A stretch of DNA of 22,568 nucleotides from a virus. Position 1 is the first letter of the stretch. Each line of letters begins with the position of its first letter. The DNA is taken from positions 1 through 22,568 of IMG/VR virus record IMGVR_UViG_3300025276_000232. One strand, written 5' to 3'. This document shows, one piece after another, positions 1,047 through 11,657 of this stretch. A model generated the notes under the pieces. It had not been told where the DNA came from, did no database searches, and saw nothing but the letters and a program-made list of their open reading frames with translations. The translations under genes and the position numbers were made by a program.

Positions 1047-4000
1047 ATGGCAGGTTATACAAGACAATCTTCCGCTAGTATCGTTAACGGTAGTGCAATT
1101 ACTGCACCTCCAATCAACGCAGAATTTAACCAGCTACTTGCAGCATTTAATGCATCTACTGGTCACGGTCATACAGGCGGTACGGGAGATGCTCCAAAGA
1201 TACCTCTAGCGACTTCGGTTTCTGGATTTCTCCCAGTGGCTAATGGTGGATCAGCAGGTAAGAATAACTTCTCTGCAACTTCTACCCCTGTGGTTGGTGA
1301 CGATAGTGCTGATGGCTATGCAGTCGGGTCAATGTGGACAAACACATCAACAGATCGAGTATACATCTGTACAGACAACAGTTCGGGTGCAGCAGTTTGG
1401 CGTGAGCTAGTACAAGTTACATCTGGTAATGCTATACTTCCTGTAGCTAATGACACGATTGACCTTGGTTCTAATGGCGCACGTTTCCAAGATATATTTC
1501 TAAGCGGTGGTATTTCTGCATCAGGCAACGCAGCCGTTGGTGGTACACTTACACTAACAGGTACTACAGCTCTAAACTCAACATTAACTGTTACAGGAGT
1601 GACTGCCCTTAATGGTGGTCTAACGATGGATAGCAACAAATTTACTGTTGCAAATACATCAGGTGATGTTGCTACCGCAGGTACTTTAACTGTTACAGGT
1701 GCAACGGCCTTAAACGGCGGTCTAACTATGGACTCAGACAAGTTCACAGTAGCAAATACGTCTGGTAACGTAGCAACCGCTGGTACACTTGCGGTAACGG
1801 GTACATCAGCATTTACGGGCGTAGTTACAGCCAATGCAGGAGTTGTAGTAGACAACATCACAATCGATGGCACAGAGATTGATCTCTCTAGCGGCGATCT
1901 AACACTAGACGTTGCAGGAGACATTATACTAAACGCAGATGGTGGGGATATTAGTCTACAAGACGGATCGGCAACATTTGGCTCATTAACAAACAGCGGT
2001 GGAAACTTAGTTGTTAAAGGTGGGACTACAGCCGCTGCTACATTTACGGGGGCGAATGTAGACTTTGCTGGTACAGTAGATGTCACTGGAGCATTAACGG
2101 CTGATAGCACTGTTGCTGTTGCAGGTGTTCTAAGTCCTGCCACTCACGTTGATATGCCAGACAATGCTAAGATTAAGCTGGGTACAGGCGATGATTTAAC
2201 TGCTTATCACGATGGTTCAAACTCTTATTTAACTAATGCTACAGGCGCTTTAAAAATATCCACAGAGACAAGTGGTGGTGCAGTAACTATAGGTCATACA
2301 ACATCTGAAGTTACCATAGGTGATAACCTTACTGTCGCAGGTAACTTAACGGTACAGGGTACTCAGACTGTAGTTGATAGCGTTATAATGAATGCACAGA
2401 ATGCTGTAGTATTTGAAGGTGCAACCGCAGACGATCATGAGACAACACTTACAATAGTTGATCCGACTGCTGATCGTACAATTAATTTACCAAACCAATC
2501 AGGCACACTGCCAGTATTAGCTGCGGCTAGTAATGACCAGGTAACAGCTACTCCAGCAGAACTATCTATAATGGATGGTGATAAGTCTGCGGTAAGTACT
2601 ACGCTTGCAGACGCTGACCGTGTAGTCGTGAACGATGCAGGTACAATGAAGCAAGTCGCCCTGACTGACTTTGAAACCTACATGGAAACAAGTCTAGATA
2701 CTCTAGCAAACGTCACCACAGTTGGAGCATTAAACGCAGGTACTATTACGAGTGGCTTTGGTGCGATTGATAACGGATCGTCTGCAATCACAACTTCTGG
2801 TACAGTTAACTTTGGGTCAATATCTGATGGCACAATTACGATCACTGGATTTGTTGATGAAGACAATATGGCATCCAACAGCGCCACACTTATACCTACA
2901 CAGCAATCAGTAGAGGCCCGTATTCAGGCAATTAGTGCTAACGCTAATAACGTCACTGGGCTTACCGCTTCTGGTGCAGAATTAAACATCCTAGATAATG
3001 CCACTTTGACCACAGCCGAATTAAATATATTGGACGGAAGTGCTACCACTCAAGCTACAGTAACTTTAGCTGGTACAGATGGTGTAGTTATTTCAGATGC
3101 TGATGTAATGAAACAAGCTTTAGTATCTGACTTTGATACATACATTTCAGGTACAACTAAGACCTTAACAAACAAAACTCTTTCTGCCCCAACACTAACT
3201 GGAACCGCAGTCGTTGCAAGCCTAGACATCTCAGGTGATATAGACGTAGACGGCACTACTAACCTTGATGTCGTGGACATTGATGGTGCTGTTAATATGG
3301 CAACTACTTTGGCAGTAGGGGGAGACACTACTGTTGTTGGTGTTTTGGCTGTCAACAAATCTTCAGGATACGGTAATGTTGAAGTGGGCGGCCCATCTGG
3401 TGGATTCATTGACCTCAAAGCACCATTTTCTGATGATTACGATGCACGTATTATTTATAACGCTGGTACTGACTTACAGCTAATAACCCTAGCAGACGAG
3501 CCAATTCGCCTTAGACATGCGGGTAACACTAAGTTATCTACATTATCAACAGGCATAAACGTTACTGGCAACGCTACATTTGCAGATAATGGTAAAGCCA
3601 TATTCGGTGCTGGGTCTGACTTACAGATTTACCATAATGTTAATAATAGCATCGTTGCCGATACAGGGTCAGGGATTCTTAGTTTACAAAGTAACGGTAC
3701 AGAAGTTGCTTTATATGATACTGATAATGATGCGAATATGGGAAGATTTATAACTGGCGGTGCTGTTAAGCTTTTTCACAATGGTAATAATAAGTTTGAG
3801 ACAACAGCAACAGGCATAGACGTAACTGGCACAGTGACTTCTGATGGTCTGACTGTAGCTGGTAATAGCACTACCTCAGTTAATATAGCCGCCAATACCT
3901 CTGGTATAGGTAACAAGGGACTGTTAGTTGGCCCAACTGGGTTTTCAGGTTCTTTTGTATATAAGTCCACAGGTGATGCTGAAATAGCTCCACGAAGTGG

Positions 4001-5462
4001 AAAGGACTTAATATTTGCGGCGAGTACAGGCGGTACAGAACGTATGAGGATTAATAGCGATGGAAAAGTTGGTATTGGTGCCAGTTCTATTGACGGTAAC
4101 AGTAATCTACAGATACAAAACGATTCTGGAAATGCACTATTACGTCTGCGTTCAGGTACATCAAATCTTTCTGGAGTAGACTTTGGTGACAGCGGCGATA
4201 TTGATATAGGTGGTATACGTTACAACAATTCTTCAAATCATATGCAGTTTACTGTCAATGCAACAGAACGTATGCGGATTAAGAGCGATGGAAAAGTTGG
4301 TATTTCTCAACCAGCCCCAGCCGCACTGTTACACATTGGTGATGCTAGTAATGAATTAGGCACAACTTCTGGAAACACCCTCAGTAACCTTACCCTTCAG
4401 ACTGATACAGCAAACGTAGATTCATTACTGTTTACCACACGACGATTTAGTAATGGGGCAGATTGGAATACAGCGGCTCATAGGATACAACGTAAAGTTG
4501 ATACTAGTCTTATGGGCTTCATGGAGTTTGGTAACCAAGGCAGTAACTTAATTACATTTGGTAAAGTCAATAATGAGTTTGCCAGAATAGATGGTAGTGG
4601 TAACTTGTTGGTGGGTTCTACAAACAACTCTCCAGCAACTAACAATGTAGCTGGTAGTTCTCATGGGTCACTTGGCAATATCCAAGCAAGCGTTGCTGGA
4701 AACCCATGTCTTTTTGTTAATAGAAAAAGCAATGATGGCGATATTATTTCTTTACGCAAAGACGGCTCTGCGGTGGGGAGTATTGGAGTGGATGCAAGTG
4801 CGCCTATTTTTCGTAATGTAAACGGCGATGGAATAGGCATAAAGACAGATAATGGACAATGCTTAGTACTCCCATACAATTCGTCAGGTACATCTGATAA
4901 TGACGCAGACTTAGGTTCATCAGGTAACCGTTTTGACGACATCTTTGCAACTAACGGCACAATCCAAACATCTGACCGCAACGAGAAGCAAGACATAGCA
5001 TCACTTACAGCTACAGAAATGCTAGTAGGTAAACGTATCTCAGCTCTATTCAAGACATTCAGATGGAAAGACAAAGTTGTAGAGAGGGGTGACAATGCTC
5101 GTACTCACACAGGTATCATAGCTCAAGACGTACAATCAGCTTTCACTGCTGAAGGTTTAGATGCTGGTGATTACTCATTGTTTATCTCAACTACTTGGTG
5201 GGAAACACAAACAGATGTACCAGCAGTTGAAGCTGTAGCTGAAGTCACTGACGAAGATGGCAACGTAACTACAGAAGCTGTTGAAGCTAAAGATGGTTAC
5301 ACTCGTACTGACACATACAAAACAGAAGCTGAAGCACCAGAAGGTGCAACAGAAAGAACTAGAATGGGTATTCGTTACCCTGAGTTACTATCTTTTGTAG
5401 CCGCATACAACGAACAACGATTTGCTTCTATCGAGGCTCGTATAACAGCATTGGAAGGATAA
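1047..5462 (+). CDS. Tail fibre with C-terminal S74 intramolecular chaperone
   Basis: This 1471-residue receptor-binding fibre should assemble as a trimer. The N-terminus (1-60) is the probable virion-anchoring part and carries an H-x-H motif (H40, H42 in a GHGHTGG context) before KIPL. The shaft is Thr/Gly/Asn/Val-rich beta-repeat sequence: two tandem 34-aa copies at nt 1605-1808, T-A-E-L-N-I-L-D-G repeats near nt 2970-3040, and two ERMRIxSDGKVGI units (nt ~4040 and ~4267). The C-terminal ~163 residues match the endosialidase-type chaperone (peptidase S74): S1309-D-R-N-E-K1314 marks the self-cleavage site and the expected Ser-Lys dyad, followed by GIIAQDVQ and, near the end, GIRYPELLSFVAAYNEQ. 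In the family this domain trimerises the fibre and then cuts itself off. AGGGAGA at 1031-1037 supports the ATG. The S74 call is strong; the receptor is unknown. Confidence 0.93.
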   Translation: MAGYTRQSSASIVNGSAITAPPINAEFNQLLAAFNASTGHGHTGGTGDAPKIPLATSVSGFLPVANGGSAGKNNFSATSTPVVGDDSADGYAVGSMWTNTSTDRVYICTDNSSGAAVWRELVQVTSGNAILPVANDTIDLGSNGARFQDIFLSGGISASGNAAVGGTLTLTGTTALNSTLTVTGVTALNGGLTMDSNKFTVANTSGDVATAGTLTVTGATALNGGLTMDSDKFTVANTSGNVATAGTLAVTGTSAFTGVVTANAGVVVDNITIDGTEIDLSSGDLTLDVAGDIILNADGGDISLQDGSATFGSLTNSGGNLVVKGGTTAAATFTGANVDFAGTVDVTGALTADSTVAVAGVLSPATHVDMPDNAKIKLGTGDDLTAYHDGSNSYLTNATGALKISTETSGGAVTIGHTTSEVTIGDNLTVAGNLTVQGTQTVVDSVIMNAQNAVVFEGATADDHETTLTIVDPTADRTINLPNQSGTLPVLAAASNDQVTATPAELSIMDGDKSAVSTTLADADRVVVNDAGTMKQVALTDFETYMETSLDTLANVTTVGALNAGTITSGFGAIDNGSSAITTSGTVNFGSISDGTITITGFVDEDNMASNSATLIPTQQSVEARIQAISANANNVTGLTASGAELNILDNATLTTAELNILDGSATTQATVTLAGTDGVVISDADVMKQALVSDFDTYISGTTKTLTNKTLSAPTLTGTAVVASLDISGDIDVDGTTNLDVVDIDGAVNMATTLAVGGDTTVVGVLAVNKSSGYGNVEVGGPSGGFIDLKAPFSDDYDARIIYNAGTDLQLITLADEPIRLRHAGNTKLSTLSTGINVTGNATFADNGKAIFGAGSDLQIYHNVNNSIVADTGSGILSLQSNGTEVALYDTDNDANMGRFITGGAVKLFHNGNNKFETTATGIDVTGTVTSDGLTVAGNSTTSVNIAANTSGIGNKGLLVGPTGFSGSFVYKSTGDAEIAPRSGKDLIFAASTGGTERMRINSDGKVGIGASSIDGNSNLQIQNDSGNALLRLRSGTSNLSGVDFGDSGDIDIGGIRYNNSSNHMQFTVNATERMRIKSDGKVGISQPAPAALLHIGDASNELGTTSGNTLSNLTLQTDTANVDSLLFTTRRFSNGADWNTAAHRIQRKVDTSLMGFMEFGNQGSNLITFGKVNNEFARIDGSGNLLVGSTNNSPATNNVAGSSHGSLGNIQASVAGNPCLFVNRKSNDGDIISLRKDGSAVGSIGVDASAPIFRNVNGDGIGIKTDNGQCLVLPYNSSGTSDNDADLGSSGNRFDDIFATNGTIQTSDRNEKQDIASLTATEMLVGKRISALFKTFRWKDKVVERGDNARTHTGIIAQDVQSAFTAEGLDAGDYSLFISTTWWETQTDVPAVEAVAEVTDEDGNVTTEAVEAKDGYTRTDTYKTEAEAPEGATERTRMGIRYPELLSFVAAYNEQRFASIEARITALEG
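1605..1808 (+). repeat. Two tandem 102-nt (34-aa) units in the fibre shaft
   Basis: The units begin at 1605 and 1707. Each encodes ALNGGLTMDS, then KFTVANTSG, then VATAGTL. The two copies agree at 29 of 34 residues but differ at 31 of 102 bases by direct codon comparison, so most differences are synonymous. These units probably form part of a triple beta-helix shaft. Confidence 0.8.
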
Positions 5463-6041: not shown

Positions 6042-6092
6042 ATGAGTAAGTTAAAACTACATTTTATCCAAGCTGATGTTAAGCATGACTGA
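6042..6092 (+). CDS. Possible 16-aa leader ORF overlapping the next gene
   Basis: ATG at 6042 follows an AAAAAGGGA-type ribosome-binding sequence (about 6026-6034) and encodes 16 residues (MSKLKLHFIQADVKHD) before TGA at 6090-6092. The stop overlaps the ATG at 6085 of the next gene in another frame, and that gene has no visible ribosome-binding site of its own. A translated leader that delivers ribosomes to the next start by coupling would explain this. It could also be chance; there is no homology I recognise. Confidence 0.3.
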   Translation: MSKLKLHFIQADVKHD

Positions 6093-6351
6093 AAGTTGGC
6101 ATCTCTCCAAGTCAGTACCAGTTAGTCTTATAATAGCTATCGTACTGCAAACTATATCACTGGTATGGTATGTGTCTTCACTAGACTCTGCCGTTAAAAG
6201 TAATGCCCGTGATCTAGTCCGTCAAGAAACTCGCATTGGTACAATAGAAAAGACTGTGCAATCACAAGCTGTGTCTCTTGGACGTATTGATGAAAACATT
6301 AAAGCTATTCGTAATCTTGTAGAAAGAATGGCAGAACAAGATAAGAAATGA
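6085..6351 (+). CDS. Small single-TM coiled-coil protein
   Basis: Starting at MTESWHLSK gives 88 residues; an in-frame ATG at 6076 would add three. The order is a short polar N-terminus, one transmembrane helix (about residues 10-30, VPVSLIIAIVLQTISLVWYV), then a charged helix with heptad character (RQETRIGTIEK ... GRIDENIKAIRNLVERM). This small membrane-anchored coiled-coil type is common in marine phages near the lysis genes. It has no Shine-Dalgarno sequence of its own and overlaps the 16-aa leader ORF, so it may be translated by coupling. The next gene's ATG at 6348 overlaps its TGA by 4 nt (ATGA). An accessory envelope or lysis role is inferred from topology and neighbours; no function is established. 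Confidence 0.8.
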   Translation: MTESWHLSKSVPVSLIIAIVLQTISLVWYVSSLDSAVKSNARDLVRQETRIGTIEKTVQSQAVSLGRIDENIKAIRNLVERMAEQDKK

Positions 6352-6938
6352 AACTATTACTTATACTATTTACCTTATTAGTTGGTGCTACTGCCTATGC
6401 TAATGAGGATACTATATACACAGATACTAATAGTACTGTTACTTCAGATGGAACTATGACTACCGATAGTACTGTCACCTCAAATGGCTCAATGGAAACG
6501 ACTATAAATAGCCCACCGCCATCAGCTATATCACCACAAATAAGTGCAAGTAACTCTGACCTATGTACTGTAGGTGTAGCAGGTGCAGTACAGACGCAGA
6601 TACTAGGCATCTCAGCAGGTCGTACTGTTCGTGATATGAACTGTGAAAAATTAAAGAACGCAAAAGTTATGTACGATATGGGCATGAAGGTAGCTGCCGT
6701 ATCCGTAATGTGCCAAGACGAAAGAGTGTTTGATGCCATGCTTAATGCAGGTACTCCATGTCCAAAGGACGGTAAAGTAGGCGATGAAGCTAGATTAGCA
6801 TGGGAAATGGAAGCAGTTAAGGAAGAGATAGAACGTGATCAAAACAATGTTATCAATAAGTTCTTTGATGAAAATGGTGAAGCTAAGATTGGTTTGGGTG
6901 TTATCCTTAGTACTCTTGCCTTCTTACTCTTACTCTGA
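6348..6938 (+). CDS. Exported protein with four cysteines and a C-terminal membrane tail
   Basis: The 196-aa product has a clear signal peptide (KLLLILFTLLVGATAYA, cleavage likely after A18). A Thr/Ser/Asp-rich low-complexity stretch (about 21-55) and PPPSAISP follow. The core holds cysteines at 73, 99, 122 and 138 (DLCTVGVAGAVQTQILGISAG ... VMCQDERVFDAML), which suggests two periplasmic disulfides. A charged helix leads to a hydrophobic C-terminus (182-196, GLGVILSTLAFLLLL), probably a membrane anchor. I recall the DLCTVG...MCQDxRVFDAM core from many marine phages, always without a function. It is first in a run of exported proteins. The last ~70 nt also encode the start of the next gene in another frame. 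Confidence 0.82.
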   Translation: MKLLLILFTLLVGATAYANEDTIYTDTNSTVTSDGTMTTDSTVTSNGSMETTINSPPPSAISPQISASNSDLCTVGVAGAVQTQILGISAGRTVRDMNCEKLKNAKVMYDMGMKVAAVSVMCQDERVFDAMLNAGTPCPKDGKVGDEARLAWEMEAVKEEIERDQNNVINKFFDENGEAKIGLGVILSTLAFLLLL

Positions 6939-7764
6939 ACCGTTCACATATGGTACTACAGATAATGCTGTATCGAATGCTTTAAGATGGAGTATGGATT
7001 CTATTTTACCTAGCATCGGTGGGGTCGATATAAATGGATTACTCTATAGGTATACGACAGTAAAAGACCCAGATGCTGATATGAAAGTACACGTTAGTAA
7101 TCGTAATGCAAAGGGAGATGGGTATACATTTAGAGAAACTGATGATTGGTCTGGCGTACCAGGAAATACTATTGTTAAGTCTTTCCCTATTTCAAATATA
7201 CCAGCATCTAATTGGGGTAAAGGCTCTATTAAAGTGGAAGGTGAAGGAACTGTTAAGGATGCAGTAGTAATATATAGCTACCGATTAGACAGATGCTATG
7301 ACCCACAAGCTGATCCTACATGTGCTGGCTACGTTAAACCTGTCCCTAATATACCAGAACCTATTGAGTATCCTAAGATGCAAGACGTAGTGGTATATAA
7401 TTCCTTAGAAGATGATGCAGTTAAGGATACCTTAGAGTCAGATGATTTTGAATATGAAGATGAAGACGATGAACGTAGAGAATCTGAAGAGGAAGATACT
7501 GCGTCACGAATTGAAATGGGCTTAATGGCATCAGAGAATGCACTCACATTATTCAAAACACAAAGTCAAAGCGCAATGATTGTAGCAATCAACAAACAAA
7601 CAAATATCAATATGTATTATAACGCACAAATAAACGGTGGCACACTAAACGATGCTCCTGGATTAAAAGATTCAACAATAGCTGACAATAAAAAAGCATT
7701 AAGAAACAATTTAGCACAACAATTATTACATGAGAAAATGATTGACTTGCAGTATAACAAATGA
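6868..7764 (+). CDS. Exported acidic protein, unknown function
   Basis: I start it at ATG 6868 (298 aa). A GTG at 6835 is in frame but would put a polar extension before the signal peptide, and ATG 6874 is equally possible. The N-terminus is a signal peptide (KLRLVWVLSLVLLPSYSYS, cleavage before EPF). The mature part has a beta-rich region (RYTTVKDPDADMKVHVSN ... DAVVIYSYRLDRCYDP) with a Cys pair (CYDPQADPTC), a strongly acidic segment (DDFEYEDEDDERRESEEED) and a helical Asn/Gln-rich C-terminus. No known enzyme motif is seen. It overlaps the previous gene by about 70 nt, and the next gene's region begins at its TGA. Probably periplasmic or surface-exposed. Confidence 0.75.
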   Translation: MKMVKLRLVWVLSLVLLPSYSYSEPFTYGTTDNAVSNALRWSMDSILPSIGGVDINGLLYRYTTVKDPDADMKVHVSNRNAKGDGYTFRETDDWSGVPGNTIVKSFPISNIPASNWGKGSIKVEGEGTVKDAVVIYSYRLDRCYDPQADPTCAGYVKPVPNIPEPIEYPKMQDVVVYNSLEDDAVKDTLESDDFEYEDEDDERRESEEEDTASRIEMGLMASENALTLFKTQSQSAMIVAINKQTNINMYYNAQINGGTLNDAPGLKDSTIADNKKALRNNLAQQLLHEKMIDLQYNK

Positions 7765-7767
7765 GGA
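7763..7767 (+). promoter_or_regulatory. GAGGA ribosome-binding site that sets the start at 7773
   Basis: GAGGA lies 5 nt before ATG 7773 and is embedded after the in-frame ATG at 7761. Choosing 7773 gives a normal signal peptide beginning MKYIVSLL, so 7773 is preferred over 7761. Confidence 0.6.
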
Positions 7768-7772
7768 ATAAA

Positions 7773-8261
7773 ATGAAATATATAGTATCGTTACTTTCAC
7801 TATGTGCGTTACCAGCTTATGCTACTGTCGAGATTAGAGGTACTGTAGCTGCAAAATGCATAATACAAGTAGATAAAACAGGTGTATATGGAAACCCTTC
7901 GTCTTCTGTACTAAGTACTTCTCCATCAGACGGTGGTGTATTACCAGTTATTAGATTTGATGTGGCACTAGCAGACTACTATACTGCTAACATTACGCAC
8001 CCTAATTCTTTTACATCATCTCCAACACTAACTGATTATGTGTCATGGGCAGGTTCTACATCTGTTACTAAAACATCAGATGCTGGTATGTCTGGCTACA
8101 ATGCATCTAAAGTTACTTATGACAACACAACTGTGTTTGATCTGACTGTTGCTGGTAGCACGTGGTTTTCTACGAGTTCTACTGCAACTTATGCTGGATC
8201 AAAGCCTTTCACTGGAGGTTCGTATACCTCTGTAGTACAAGCGAGTTGCGTTGCTAAGTAA
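7773..8261 (+). CDS. Exported pilin-like beta protein
   Basis: The 162-aa precursor has a signal peptide (KYIVSLLSLCALPAYA, cleavage before TVEIRG). The mature protein is beta-rich and Ser/Thr-rich with just two cysteines, one in the first strand region (GTVAAKC) and one at the very C-terminus (SVVQASCVAK). The end, PFTGGSYTSVVQASC, resembles the final strand of fimbrial and spore-coat-U-like subunits (Gly-x-Tyr followed by an alternating strand). That resemblance is my judgement from pattern, not a search. The next gene resembles a pilus chaperone and overlaps this one by 11 nt, which strengthens a subunit/chaperone reading. No usher is visible. It could alternatively be a virion decoration or an outer-membrane blocking protein. 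Confidence 0.7.
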   Translation: MKYIVSLLSLCALPAYATVEIRGTVAAKCIIQVDKTGVYGNPSSSVLSTSPSDGGVLPVIRFDVALADYYTANITHPNSFTSSPTLTDYVSWAGSTSVTKTSDAGMSGYNASKVTYDNTTVFDLTVAGSTWFSTSSTATYAGSKPFTGGSYTSVVQASCVAK

Positions 8262-8637
8262 GTTAATCATAATATTTATAGGGTGGGCAACCGCTATCTC
8301 TGCACATGAGATGACACCAGCCTATCCGATACTAAAACATACCAGTGTATCAGGTATTATGAAGGCAAATATGTCTCTGTTTAACTCACGGGAAGATGTA
8401 GAATATTATCAGATTGATCTTTTTGATTTAAATTGGATTAATATGCCATTTTCATCTAAGTCAAGAATTATAAAGGTAAGCTATAAAGAGCGTAAAGATT
8501 TTGTAGTATACCTACGAAAAATAGATTTAGATGAAGCTACATACATATGCACAACATCTAAACTTATTAAGAACACACAGTCCAGAACAATGATTATTTC
8601 TAGAATATGTTCTCGTATAGATGGTGAACCTGCGTGA
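8251..8637 (+). CDS. Exported PapD-like (pilus-chaperone-like) small protein
   Basis: TTG at 8251 is the only start that keeps a full signal peptide (LSKLIIIFIGWATAISA, cleavage before HEM). It overlaps the pilin-like gene by 11 nt, which points to coupled translation. The 128-aa product has the strand pattern of the first immunoglobulin-like domain of fimbrial chaperones: IMKANMSLFNSREDVEYYQI, then FVVYLRKIDLDEATYICTTSK, with basic residues and two cysteines (YIC ... RIC). It is about half the length of a complete PapD-type chaperone, so a second domain is missing. The family link is inference from pattern and context. The last bases (GTGA) overlap the next start. Confidence 0.68.
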   Translation: MLSKLIIIFIGWATAISAHEMTPAYPILKHTSVSGIMKANMSLFNSREDVEYYQIDLFDLNWINMPFSSKSRIIKVSYKERKDFVVYLRKIDLDEATYICTTSKLIKNTQSRTMIISRICSRIDGEPA

Positions 8638-9047
8638 GATTAATACTAATATTATGTTGCATTGCAAGCTCTGCTGTTGCTGATAGTAGTGCATTATCTT
8701 TAGCATTACCTAATCCACCGATGAACTATCAATCAGATAGATTTCGGGCAGGTAACTTAGACTGTAGTAATGCAGTGGGTGGCGGTACTAACTTAGAGTT
8801 TGGCGTAACAGGTGTAGTAAGCAATGTGGGTGGTACTTTTAGTACGTTAGGTTCAACGCAACAGAGTAAGGATGTAGGGGTATATGCTCGTCTTGTTATA
8901 CCTCTTGATAAACCTAAGTCTCGTATTAATTGTGATGATTTATATCAGGTAGAGTTAGCTCAACGTAGGTTAGAGATACAACAGCTTCGTAACGAATTAG
9001 AAGCCCTCAAAGACCTTCAAAAAGGCGGCATGGAGTTCGAGAACTAA
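8634..9047 (+). CDS. Exported small protein with C-terminal coiled coil
   Basis: GTG at 8634 overlaps the upstream stop (GTGA). The 137-aa precursor opens with a signal peptide (RLILILCCIASSAVA, cleavage before DSS). The Cys-Cys is not in a convincing lipobox because the residue before it is Leu. The mature part has a Gly/Asn-rich beta-like segment (LDCSNAVGGGTNLEFGVTGVVSNVGG), a strand YARLVIPLDKPKS, a second Cys (RINCDDL), and a helical end (ELAQRRLEIQQLRNELEALK) suited to a coiled coil. Together with the next gene, an N-terminally anchored coiled-coil protein, it could act as the outer part of a spanin-like pair, but this is only topology-based. I recognise the type from marine phages but know no function. 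Confidence 0.72.
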   Translation: MRLILILCCIASSAVADSSALSLALPNPPMNYQSDRFRAGNLDCSNAVGGGTNLEFGVTGVVSNVGGTFSTLGSTQQSKDVGVYARLVIPLDKPKSRINCDDLYQVELAQRRLEIQQLRNELEALKDLQKGGMEFEN

Positions 9048-9048
9048 G

Positions 9049-9591
9049 ATGGACACAACCAAGATCGCAGACAACATCGACGGGCTTGCAGACAGGCAAA
9101 TTAAAGCAGGGGGCATCAAGCTTACTCCTGCATCAGTCTTCGCAATCATCACATTCTTATCCACTGTAGTAGGTGGCTTATACGGCGGCTTTGTGATGTA
9201 CCAGAAGATTGAAGAGGTAGCAGGACTAGACCTTGGAGAATACCAACAAGCTATGGACGTAATGGATGCTAAAGTCACTGGTATCAGCACTAAGGTTGAA
9301 GAGAGTGTCGAGTACACAAGGGACATCAAGAACGGCTTACGGGACGATATACTGGGCATAGAGAAACAAGCAGATCGTGTTGAAGATACAGTGCGATTAA
9401 TCGAAGATAGCGTTGATACTTTACTACGAGAACACGAAGCAAAGATACGCACTCTAATCGATGCAGCAGATGTCAGATTTGAAAGTCAACGTGATAGATT
9501 ACGCACCTCTCAGGATGCTGAGATGAAAGAATTAGAAGCTCGCTTAACAAATAAACTCCAACGGGCTTTAGACAATCCATTAGCTGATTAA
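9049..9591 (+). CDS. Membrane-anchored coiled-coil protein (spanin-like topology)
   Basis: The 180-aa product has a polar N-terminus of 27 residues, one transmembrane helix (about 28-50, PASVFAIITFLSTVVGGLYGGFVM) and then about 125 residues of nearly continuous charged helix with heptad spacing (IEKQADRVEDTVRLIEDSV ... LEARLTNKLQRALD). This N-anchor plus long coiled coil is the layout of inner-membrane spanins, but it is longer than most and the orientation cannot be fixed from sequence alone. It begins 1 nt after the preceding stop and lies just upstream of the holin and endolysin genes, so a late envelope role is likely. Tail or internal roles cannot be excluded. Confidence 0.78.
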   Translation: MDTTKIADNIDGLADRQIKAGGIKLTPASVFAIITFLSTVVGGLYGGFVMYQKIEEVAGLDLGEYQQAMDVMDAKVTGISTKVEESVEYTRDIKNGLRDDILGIEKQADRVEDTVRLIEDSVDTLLREHEAKIRTLIDAADVRFESQRDRLRTSQDAEMKELEARLTNKLQRALDNPLAD

Positions 9592-9600
9592 GGAATAGAT

Positions 9601-9900
9601 ATGACTGATTATGATTTAAATGGTAACGGAGTTATTGATCCTGAAGAGCGTGAGATTATGCTTGAGGATAGGCGTAGGCAGATGGAAGATTCAGATGCTA
9701 AGAGAGACACGCAGCGTAAGCTAGTTGTGGCTACTTGTGCAGGTATGCTTCTCTATCCGTTTGTTATCCTGGCCTCGTCTATCATGGGGCATTCTGGTGC
9801 GGCAGGACTGATAGCTGATATAGCTGCTGTATATGTGGTAGCGGCATCTGGTGTAGTAGCAGCTTACTTCGGCTTCAATGCAATGGAGGCTAAGAAATGA
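9601..9900 (+). CDS. Two-TM protein with an N-terminal EF-hand loop
   Basis: Residues 5-16 (DLNGNGVIDPEE) match the 12-residue EF-hand calcium loop at every key position: D5, N7, N9, G10, I12, D13 and E16. It sits almost at the N-terminus, so the helix that normally precedes the loop is missing. A highly charged linker (REIMLEDRRRQMEDSDAKRD) follows, then two transmembrane helices (about 41-62 and 69-92) and a basic end. The size and topology suit a holin-like or pinholin-like protein; calcium control is inferred from the loop. AAGGAA at 9590-9595 precedes ATG 9601. The stop overlaps the next start (ATGA at 9897). Similar single-EF-hand proteins occur in other marine phages, to my recollection. 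Confidence 0.82.
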   Translation: MTDYDLNGNGVIDPEEREIMLEDRRRQMEDSDAKRDTQRKLVVATCAGMLLYPFVILASSIMGHSGAAGLIADIAAVYVVAASGVVAAYFGFNAMEAKK

Positions 9901-10349
9901 TTGCTTTATTAGGAAGTGCGCTGGGCTTTGGTACAAGCTTCTTGCCACAAGTTCTTAGCTTCTTTCAGAAGAAGCAGGATCATAAAAATCGGTTAGAAGA
10001 ACTGAAACTCCAAGGCGAACTTGCAAAGATGGGTGTTCAGAATGATATCCAGAAATTAGATAAACAGGCAGAGATCGCAGAAACGAAGGCATTATATGAA
10101 TTTGCTAACCCAAAGTCTGGATTTGCTGCTGGCTTATCCGCTAGTGTACGACCTGTTATTACTTACTTGTTTTTTGGTTTATTCCTTGCCGTCAAAGCCG
10201 TTATCTTACTTAAAGCTCTTGAAAGTGGTTCGGATTGGAAAGACGCAGTACCGCTGATGTTCGACAACGAAACACAAGCTTTATTCAGCGCTATTATAGC
10301 ATTCTGGTTTGGTCAGCGTTCAGTCAATAAATTCATGGGAGCAAAATAA
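9897..10349 (+). CDS. 3-TM holin-like protein
   Basis: The 150-aa product has a hydrophobic N-terminus (about 2-22), a charged helix (about 25-68, HKNRLEELKLQGELAKMG ... QAEIAETKALYEF), a second membrane helix (about 84-107, with VRPVITYLFFGLFLAVK) and a third (about 127-142) ending in AIIAFWFGQRSVNKF. The RP-x-x-x-Y-hydrophobic block and terminal FWFGxRxxxK match my memory of the three-TM holin family first named from gene-transfer-agent release. Its place directly before the endolysin (overlap TAATG at 10347-10351) fits a holin, which opens the inner membrane so that the signal-less endolysin can reach the wall. The holin role is well supported by context but untested. Confidence 0.8.
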   Translation: MIALLGSALGFGTSFLPQVLSFFQKKQDHKNRLEELKLQGELAKMGVQNDIQKLDKQAEIAETKALYEFANPKSGFAAGLSASVRPVITYLFFGLFLAVKAVILLKALESGSDWKDAVPLMFDNETQALFSAIIAFWFGQRSVNKFMGAK

Positions 10350-11164
10350 TGAAAGTAACTTCTGATCAAGTACACAACCTTCTGCACGGTAATAGCGAGT
10401 GGGAATCTTGGGTAGAGCCATTACAGAAGATGTTGCCTATTTATGACATTGATACTCCTGAACGCATTGCTATGTTTATGGCACAGTGTGGTCACGAAAG
10501 TAATAACTTCAGGGTGCTTAACGAAAACCTGAACTATTCAGCAAAAGCCTTGAATGCAATCTTTCCTAAGTACTTTGAACGTGCAGGACGAGATGCAGAA
10601 GAGTACCACAGAAACCCTGAAAAAATAGCTAACGTGATATATGCAAATCGCATGGGCAATGGGCCAACTGAAAGTGGCGATGGCTGGACACACAAGGGAA
10701 TTGGAATAATCCAATTAACTGGTAAGAATAATCAAACTGCATTCGCTAACTCAATGGGTAAAACTCTTGAACGTACTCTGGAGTATCTAGGTACAAAAGA
10801 AGGTGCATTAGAAAGTGCATGTTGGTTCTGGAAAGAAAATGGGCTGAATAGATACTCAGATGATATTATTAGAGCCACGAAGAGAATTAATGGTGGCACA
10901 ATAGGTCTTGAAGATAGAAAACATCACTACAAGAATGCTTTGGATATCTTAGGTGGTCAGTACAATCCTAGCCCAGCGCCAATCTTGCTAAAGGTAGGTT
11001 CAACAGGAGAAGCTGTTAAGCTTGCACAGGCAGCACTAGGGTTGGAAGCAGACGGTGTATTCGGTCTAATGACTGAGAAGGCTGTTAAGGCATGGCAGAA
11101 AGAAAATGGGCTAACTGCGGATGGTTTAGTTGGCCCTAAGACGTATGCTAAGTTAGTAGCCTGA
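10349..11164 (+). CDS. GH19 endolysin with C-terminal peptidoglycan-binding domain
   Basis: The 271-aa lysis enzyme should cleave the glycan backbone of peptidoglycan. The GH19 (chitinase/muramidase-like) domain spans about 1-200: QCGHESNNF supplies the likely general acid E50, the following LNENLNY gives E59, and GDGWTHKGIGIIQLTGKNN is the signature around the substrate groove. The widely seen G-R-G of this motif is G-I-G here (I118). Residues about 210-271 form a PG_binding_1 domain (LLKVGSTGEAVKLAQ ... ADGVFGLMTEKAVKAWQ ... LTADGLVGPKTYAKL). There is no signal peptide, so it relies on the upstream holin, whose stop it overlaps by 1 nt. It is the last gene before the only sizeable gap in the + strand block. 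Confidence 0.95.
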   Translation: MKVTSDQVHNLLHGNSEWESWVEPLQKMLPIYDIDTPERIAMFMAQCGHESNNFRVLNENLNYSAKALNAIFPKYFERAGRDAEEYHRNPEKIANVIYANRMGNGPTESGDGWTHKGIGIIQLTGKNNQTAFANSMGKTLERTLEYLGTKEGALESACWFWKENGLNRYSDDIIRATKRINGGTIGLEDRKHHYKNALDILGGQYNPSPAPILLKVGSTGEAVKLAQAALGLEADGVFGLMTEKAVKAWQKENGLTADGLVGPKTYAKLVA

Positions 11165-11234: not shown

Positions 11235-11657
11235 ATGAAATTACAGAAAGCTGTACTCGACGCACTGTTCTTATTTAACCAATCTCCAGACCACCGATTA
11301 TACACACTAGTAGAGTTTAACCACTATTGTTTATATCCACTAATCCATCAAAAAGCCCGTCTATTTTATAAAGAAGATAAGCCCATAGGTTTTGTTTCTT
11401 GGGCATGGATTACTAAAGAAGAAGGTCAGGCATTTCTAGATGAGAAGTTTGTTCCAGACGAAAAAACATACACTAGACCTGATGTAGTAACTGAAGATTT
11501 AGAGCTTTGGGGCATTGAGTTTATAGCTCCCTACGGAGACACAATCAGAGTTATGAGAGGCATGATGAAGCATTCACAATCAGTATTAGGCCGAAGAGTT
11601 CCTGCCAATTGGCGGCGATTTAATAAGCCAGACATCAAACACACGAAGGAGTTTTAA
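11235..11657 (+). CDS. HlyC-like toxin-activating lysine acyltransferase
   Basis: HlyC-family enzymes move a fatty acyl group from acyl-ACP to internal lysines of a protein, classically an RTX toxin. This 140-aa protein keeps the family layout: SPDHR with the likely catalytic H20 (HlyC SPLHR, H23), a central IGFVSWAWITKEE (HlyC VAYCSWANLSLEN) and GIEFIAPYGD (HlyC FIDWIAPFGD). The HlyC catalytic Asp92 aligns with E95, so an Asp-to-Glu change is present. It is shorter than HlyC (170 aa), mainly at the C-terminus. No RTX repeats occur in the window. The gene starts the downstream transcript, and its end holds the ribosome-binding site of the 666-aa virion protein, which begins 1 nt after its stop. 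A virion substrate is therefore an attractive inference. Family call good; activity uncertain. Confidence 0.82.
   Translation: MKLQKAVLDALFLFNQSPDHRLYTLVEFNHYCLYPLIHQKARLFYKEDKPIGFVSWAWITKEEGQAFLDEKFVPDEKTYTRPDVVTEDLELWGIEFIAPYGDTIRVMRGMMKHSQSVLGRRVPANWRRFNKPDIKHTKEF
11646..11651 (+). promoter_or_regulatory. AAGGAG ribosome-binding site inside the acyltransferase gene
   Basis: AAGGAG lies 7 nt before ATG 11659, within the last codons of the acyltransferase, which ties the two genes together translationally. Confidence 0.7.

Follow-up and report, generated by a model that had tools for sequence, protein, structure and literature searches.

Gene content of the locus

The window analysed here is the virus record IMGVR_UViG_3300025276_000232 at its full length of 22,568 bases, a fragment of its phage genome. 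Roseobacter phages CRP-235 and CRP-738, both of the HMO-2011 type (PMC9038755), carry homologues of its tail-fibre and internal-protein genes; judged by these genes, the window belongs to a phage of the same type. This work deals with a module of five predicted exported proteins (A to E, positions 6348-9047), encoded by open reading frames (ORFs) tightly packed on the plus strand in the lysis region of the phage. The interval that holds the module extends from the fibre gene (1047-5462) to an acyltransferase gene (11235-11657) and contains, in this order, two small genes, P, A to E, F, G, a holin-like protein and an endolysin. An earlier note on this DNA had described the five genes as an island between tail fibre and lysis genes; the position is right, except that two small genes and P precede the island, and F and G stand between it and the holin. 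The guanine-plus-cytosine content of the island (~37%) is not distinct from that of other parts of the window. The genes are as follows:

6076..6351, +, P: 91 amino acids (aa), or 88 aa from ATG 6085; N-terminal membrane anchor and short coiled coil; overlaps A by 4 nucleotides (nt)
6348..6938, +, A: signal peptide; Thr/Ser linker of low complexity; conserved domain with 4 Cys; hydrophobic tail at the C-terminus
6868..7764, +, B: signal peptide; beta domain (predicted); C-x8-C motif; acidic linker; at the C-terminal end, the conserved motif DN..LRNN..Q..H..MVD.QY
7773..8261, +, C: signal peptide followed by an all-beta domain, whose predicted fold resembles that of chaperone-usher pilins and leaves an N-terminal stretch unpaired
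8251..8637, +, D: signal peptide and one immunoglobulin (Ig)-like domain, similar to the N-terminal one of PapD-type chaperones; starts with TTG; cysteines at Cys100 and Cys120
8634..9047, +, E: signal peptide; small domain containing two conserved Cys; heptad-like helix at the C-terminus
9049..9591, +, F: transmembrane segment at the N-terminus, long coiled coil, and ..LDNPLAD as C-terminal tail; layout like that of an i-spanin
9601..9900, +, G: EF-hand-like N-terminus and two transmembrane segments
9897..10349, +, H: holin-like membrane protein; weak GTA_holin_3TM match; PHROG 6637
10349..11164, +, endolysin: C-terminal peptidoglycan-binding domain; PHROG 181 (E=5e-72), PG_binding_1 (E=6e-13)

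Searches of Pfam, PHROG and PDB sequences returned no function for A to E. Protein A matches PHROG 20531 (E=1e-12) and has homologues in pelagiphages and roseophages; its match to New_glue was discarded as weak, below the cut-off and confined to signal peptide and linker. The 27 genome_contigs matches of A fall in contigs of metagenome-assembled genomes (MAGs) or single cells, several of them short and phage-like, and point to no clear bacterial source. The annotations of module genes in deposited genomes are hypothetical, 'OmpA family', 'carbohydrate binding' or, wrongly, 'lysozyme'. P has a weak match to holin and Rz-like spanin families, and is 92% identical in L424, a near relative of the window.

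Conservation and exchange as one block

Several hundred IMG/VR loci were collected using A, C, D, E and the downstream structural gene as separate baits; the locus sets comprise the best 80 per scan and are, in consequence, biased to closer homologues. All five genes A to E keep the same order and strand in 116/116 distinct loci. Where the DNA is long enough, neighbours are always found together (B-A 121/121, B-C 123/123, C-D 117/117, D-E 112/112), and F directly follows E in 104/104 loci. Such constancy strongly supports the earlier view of a coordinated, envelope-directed set, and contradicts the possibility, also raised there, that the genes are rarely together in related phages. The functional set is in fact wider than five, since F and usually G belong to it: among module loci with enough DNA, F is followed by G in 39/50, and most of these have holin and endolysin next.

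The module also changes as a block. Between the window and L424, DNA identity is 87% for P, drops to 63, 64, 75, 61 and 71% for A, B, C, D and E, respectively, and rises to 92-95% for F, G and holin (the I2 row, a mis-paired fragment, was left out of this comparison), with shifts near 6430 and 8950. By this pattern, A to E were exchanged, or diverged, as one allele. Swapping en bloc between close relatives is as expected of interacting partners and, hence, physical interaction among A to E is likely.

The reading frames are interlocked in a fixed way as well: the overlap is usually 71 nt for A/B, 11 nt for C/D (in most loci) and 4 nt for D/E. In the window, ATG 6868 is a better start for B than GTG 6835, which gives the A/B overlap its 71 nt and places the code for the signal peptide of B in the +1 frame within the tail of A. 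The hydrophobic tail of A is present in cases of overlap with the signal peptide of B, and could be either a by-product of the overlap or a real membrane anchor. The claim that all five genes are joined by overlaps does not extend to B/C, as C most likely starts at ATG 7773. The weak TTG start of D (window position 8251) is unusually conserved, occurring in 114/134 family members, and suggests that translation of D is coupled to that of C. E starts with GTG in the window and with ATG in relatives.

Export signals, cysteines and selection

Signal peptides were called with a simple rule for h-region and cleavage site, which 3% of shuffled proteins pass. All of A to E pass the rule, which flags only P among the other 15 window genes; five consecutive neighbours passing it makes an export pattern beyond chance. 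This part of the earlier note thus stands, and the pattern recurs in homologues: signal peptides are found in 73-100% of unique homologues of A to E (the figure for A being lowered by ambiguous starts), as against 1% for F. In the near relative L424/L120 (55.7-kb contig; ORFs of at least 75 codons), the only signal peptides on the module strand within the module stretch are those of A to E and P, further calls being on the opposite strand or outside the module region.

The mature proteins have conserved cysteine counts, i.e., four in A (186/195 homologues), two in C (117/118), two in D (112/113), two in E (104/104) and two invariant ones in B; F has none in 69/69 sequences. Even numbers in A to E (4, 2, 2, 2, 2) and none in F are as an oxidising compartment predicts. 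Median pairwise ratios of nonsynonymous to synonymous substitution (dN/dS) of 0.08-0.17 indicate strong purifying selection.

The location of the genes between tail fibre and internal virion proteins would fit a packaging of A to E in or on virions, as tail decoration or ejected proteins whose N-terminal hydrophobic segments are unused for export. We nonetheless judge this very improbable: the signal peptides are canonical, the even conserved cysteines are found in A to E and not in F, and virion assembly is cytoplasmic.

The lysis slot and the Rz/Rz1 spanin

Next to the constant A to G stand holins of two unrelated kinds and endolysins of two unrelated kinds, in every combination. The surroundings of the window's next structural gene were compared in 80 relatives, 74 of which carry a pair of Rz-like and Rz1-like genes directly upstream of it; the pair is preceded by a lysozyme wherever the contig is not cut off. 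The Rz-like protein matches the Rz-like spanin family PHROG 1026. The Rz1-like gene, with corrected start, encodes a lipoprotein (LTGC) and is found in 72/80 HMO-2011-type loci. The deposited start of this gene looks wrong in CRP-738 (L001 12839-13138, -) and CRP-235 (L005 11030-11275, +), where an upstream start yields a classical overlapped Rz/Rz1 arrangement. The idea that the small cysteine-containing protein after Rz in CRP-738 is cytoplasmic was overturned by the corrected start, which makes it a lipoprotein.

The lysis slot of the window and of L424 contains no lysozyme, Rz or Rz1; the A-F-G-holin-endolysin block is found there instead. No spanin was seen in the 55.7-kb contig of the near relative. 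No lipoprotein was found in any of the window's six frames by a lipobox scan whose controls, lambda Rz1 and T7 18.7, were both recovered; 112 module loci likewise yielded no convincing case. Similarly, an Rz1-type gene is absent from 12 module-bearing records in a search that detects canonical ones. A search of the module records with PHROG 1026 gave no match with its control equally silent, and was not used as evidence of absence. Protein A was considered as a unimolecular spanin; its C-terminal tail is hydrophobic, but its signal is of the signal-peptidase-I type and a lipobox is missing.

In this phage group, the presence of the module and that of Rz/Rz1 are reciprocal, with one exception (L434). 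Other records bear less on the slot: L440 has holin and endolysin of the new type at a cut end, L446 and L476 are truncated, and L397 has too little upstream DNA for its lysis slot to be judged. In L434 (2138-4167, HMO-type contig), a 156-aa membrane protein resembles, by eye, the one that follows F in L362.

These data also bear on superinfection exclusion or receptor masking, in which a periplasmic or surface complex of A to E would block the entry of other phages during infection. All five proteins are exported, strongly diverged alleles exchanged between near-identical flanks are typical of arms-race genes, and C and D resemble parts of pili, which are phage receptors. Exclusion or masking would not lead one to expect a constant place in the lysis cassette beside holins and endolysins that are swapped, nor reciprocal presence with Rz/Rz1, and the strong purifying selection (dN/dS about 0.1) also speaks against it. 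We regard it as the main rival explanation, though an unlikely one.

Predicted folds of C and D

AlphaFold2 gave good models, with a predicted local distance difference test (pLDDT) value of 84 for D and 90 for C. Foldseek comparison with the PDB matched D to Ig-like domains, 26 of the top 50 being PapD-type chaperones (Caf1M, FimC, FaeE, SfaE; probability 1.00, TM-score 0.42-0.53). In the model, Cys100 and Cys120 of D are on the last two strands; FGL chaperones have a cysteine pair on the last two strands (Table 2, PMC4133393). D is a single Ig-like domain of ~110 residues, while PapD-type chaperones have two. Pilins were the most frequent family among the matches of C (16 of the top 50, including the PapG pilin domain, FimF, CfaB, CsuA/B and Caf1), in the form of weak hits (probability up to 0.99, TM-score up to 0.43, E about 1e-2), and the first mature residues of C are unpaired in the model. 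C has no Pfam match, nor any sequence-level match to a Pfam pilus family; a BFVD search with it gave nothing informative, and profile comparison revealed no relationship between C and D. The usher (PF00577) was found in 0/14 module-bearing records by a search that detects the E. coli control.

According to these models, C and D would resemble the chaperone-usher pathway (PapD/FimC/Caf1M chaperones; FimF/CfaB/CsuA/B/Caf1 pilins) in parts, without being members of it. The likeness consists of (i) the predicted folds of D and C, encoded by adjacent genes; (ii) the unpaired N-terminal stretch of C; and (iii) the cysteine pair of D, placed as in FGL chaperones (PMC4133393). The difference lies in the lack of an usher and in the single Ig domain of D, with a short loop between its last two strands.

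The module might accordingly be pictured as a periplasmic pilus-like or adhesive assembly, with pilin-like C and chaperone-like D, that alters the infected cell or its debris (aggregation, vesicles) and has no role in lysis. The frequency of pilins and PapD-like chaperones among the top matches, together with a C and D that are always adjacent, with the 11-nt overlap in most loci, fits such an assembly. We give it little credence in view of the missing usher, the one Ig domain of D instead of two, TM-scores of about 0.3-0.5 with weak E-values for C, and an older core of the module that has neither C nor D.

An older core in distant phages

Distant homologues of A occur in pelagiphages and in further phages of marine and fresh waters; commonly, the next genes encode a large exported protein, B', and a small membrane-anchored coiled-coil protein ending in NPL, F'. 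Profile comparison matches B of the window to L362-type B' (probability 94%, E=1.7e-7) and F to F' (E=2.5e-24, from profiles that share no member); the C-terminal NPL is invariant in the distant relatives. This distribution makes A-B-F the probable older core, into which C-D-E would have been inserted, between B and F, in the group of the window. Pelagiphage examples are HTVC033P gp46-45-44, HTVC023P gp45-46-48 and HTVC202P gp24-25-26, which share with the window a homologous A, a homologous F with NPL tail, and a B' with signal peptide in the position of B. They differ in the size of B' (430-850 aa; homology to B was compared for L362-type B' only) and in lacking C, D and E. The B' proteins of L362 (6410-8089) and L379 (8465-10606) contain tandem C-x-NPL...CPGY repeats, and a similar motif occurs once in B of the window.

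The distant A-B-F modules are often near genes of T7-type amidase, M15, GH24 or GH19 endolysins. Two 'lysozyme' annotations, CRP-207 gp73 (L478 3292-3873) and CRP-810 gp51 (L479 7162-7584), were dismissed as a link to lysis; they are actually F-type membrane-anchored coiled coils ending in NPL. In the same two phages, the start of A is overlapped by the gene of a small unannotated lipoprotein, in which A's cysteine motif recurs in a shortened form (CRP-207, L478 1725-1940; CRP-810, L479 5558-5818), and through this motif the lipoproteins appear to tie the A domain to the outer membrane. Diverged A to F sets are found beside a class-3 lipase, whose gene comes shortly after F in L371 (11671-12432; Pfam Lipase_3 E=1.5e-23), with equivalents in L373 and L374, all phage-like contigs binned with marine MAGs.

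A candidate outer-membrane stage of lysis

Among the functions listed in the earlier note, outer-membrane disruption is the best supported, because the block is located among the lysis genes, in the place of the Rz/Rz1 spanin; receptor masking and superinfection exclusion become rivals. On balance, we lean towards the reading that A to E, with F and probably G, would form a multi-protein, lipoprotein-free outer-membrane stage of the lysis cassette.

The proposed course of events is the following. Late in infection, A to E would accumulate in the periplasm, kept apart by peptidoglycan and, in the case of C, also by chaperone-like D, while F, to judge from its layout, would be anchored in the inner membrane and extend its coiled coil into the periplasm. 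After the firing of the holin and the removal of the wall by the endolysin, the proteins would assemble into a complex bridging inner and outer membranes, and this complex would rupture the outer membrane, a spanin-like action exerted without the outer-membrane lipoprotein that defines spanins. A more specific version seems distinctly unlikely to us: pilin-like C, kept soluble by the single-domain chaperone D, would polymerise by donor-strand exchange with A, B and E onto F after wall loss, thereby breaking the outer membrane.

Compared with two-component spanins (lambda Rz/Rz1; T7 18.5/18.7; Rz/Rz1 of CRP-235 and CRP-738), the block has the same position in the lysis cassette by holin and endolysin, a predicted coiled-coil partner in the inner membrane (F), predicted periplasmic partners that contain cysteines, and overlapping genes (the tail of A and the signal peptide of B). 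By sequence, both F and P show the N-terminal transmembrane segment and coiled coil of an inner-membrane spanin subunit, and the coil would lie in the periplasm. The differences are the lack of a lipoprotein in the window, the five soluble exported proteins, and the absence of sequence similarity. With phages in which no spanin has been recognised (PMC6139136) the window shares the lack of a recognisable o-spanin lipoprotein; the difference is that a specific, conserved candidate set can be named here.

Several points weigh against an outer-membrane stage. (i) In L434, a 29.4-kb record, G occurs with a holin and an endolysin of the new type, but without A to F and without Rz/Rz1, so lysis may need neither system and replacement is not exceptionless. 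(ii) A lipoprotein is kept beside A in a few distant A-B-F loci (L302, L303, L304, L317, L357, L393), where the module may be an addition, not a replacement. (iii) Many distant A-B-F loci have no lysis gene within reach, in a search of limited sensitivity. (iv) The window is a 22.6-kb fragment, and a spanin may be encoded elsewhere in its own genome. (v) A spanin needs far fewer components than five soluble exported proteins.

The first two points are also what one would expect of an accessory periplasmic aid to lysis or host takeover (e.g., through peptidoglycan binding or the blocking of host envelope repair), in which case no protein would be dedicated to breaking the outer membrane: L434 does without both systems, and some loci keep a lipoprotein beside the module. 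An aid of this kind would leave unexplained why the full module occurs where Rz/Rz1 is missing in this phage group, and we see only a slim chance for it.

No recognisable spanin has been found in 91 of 677 Gram-negative phages, about one in seven (PMC6139136). We found no description of the module in the open-paper literature; the papers on HMO-2011-type phages (PMC9038755) and on CRP-810 (PMC11288001) mention lysis in passing only. The block formed by these genes is kept in over a hundred related phages and, in this group, it seems to serve in place of the proteins by which the outer membrane is usually broken. How phages with no recognisable spanin break the outer membrane is a question that a conserved gene set, widespread in marine phages and located at the place of the missing spanin, makes directly testable.

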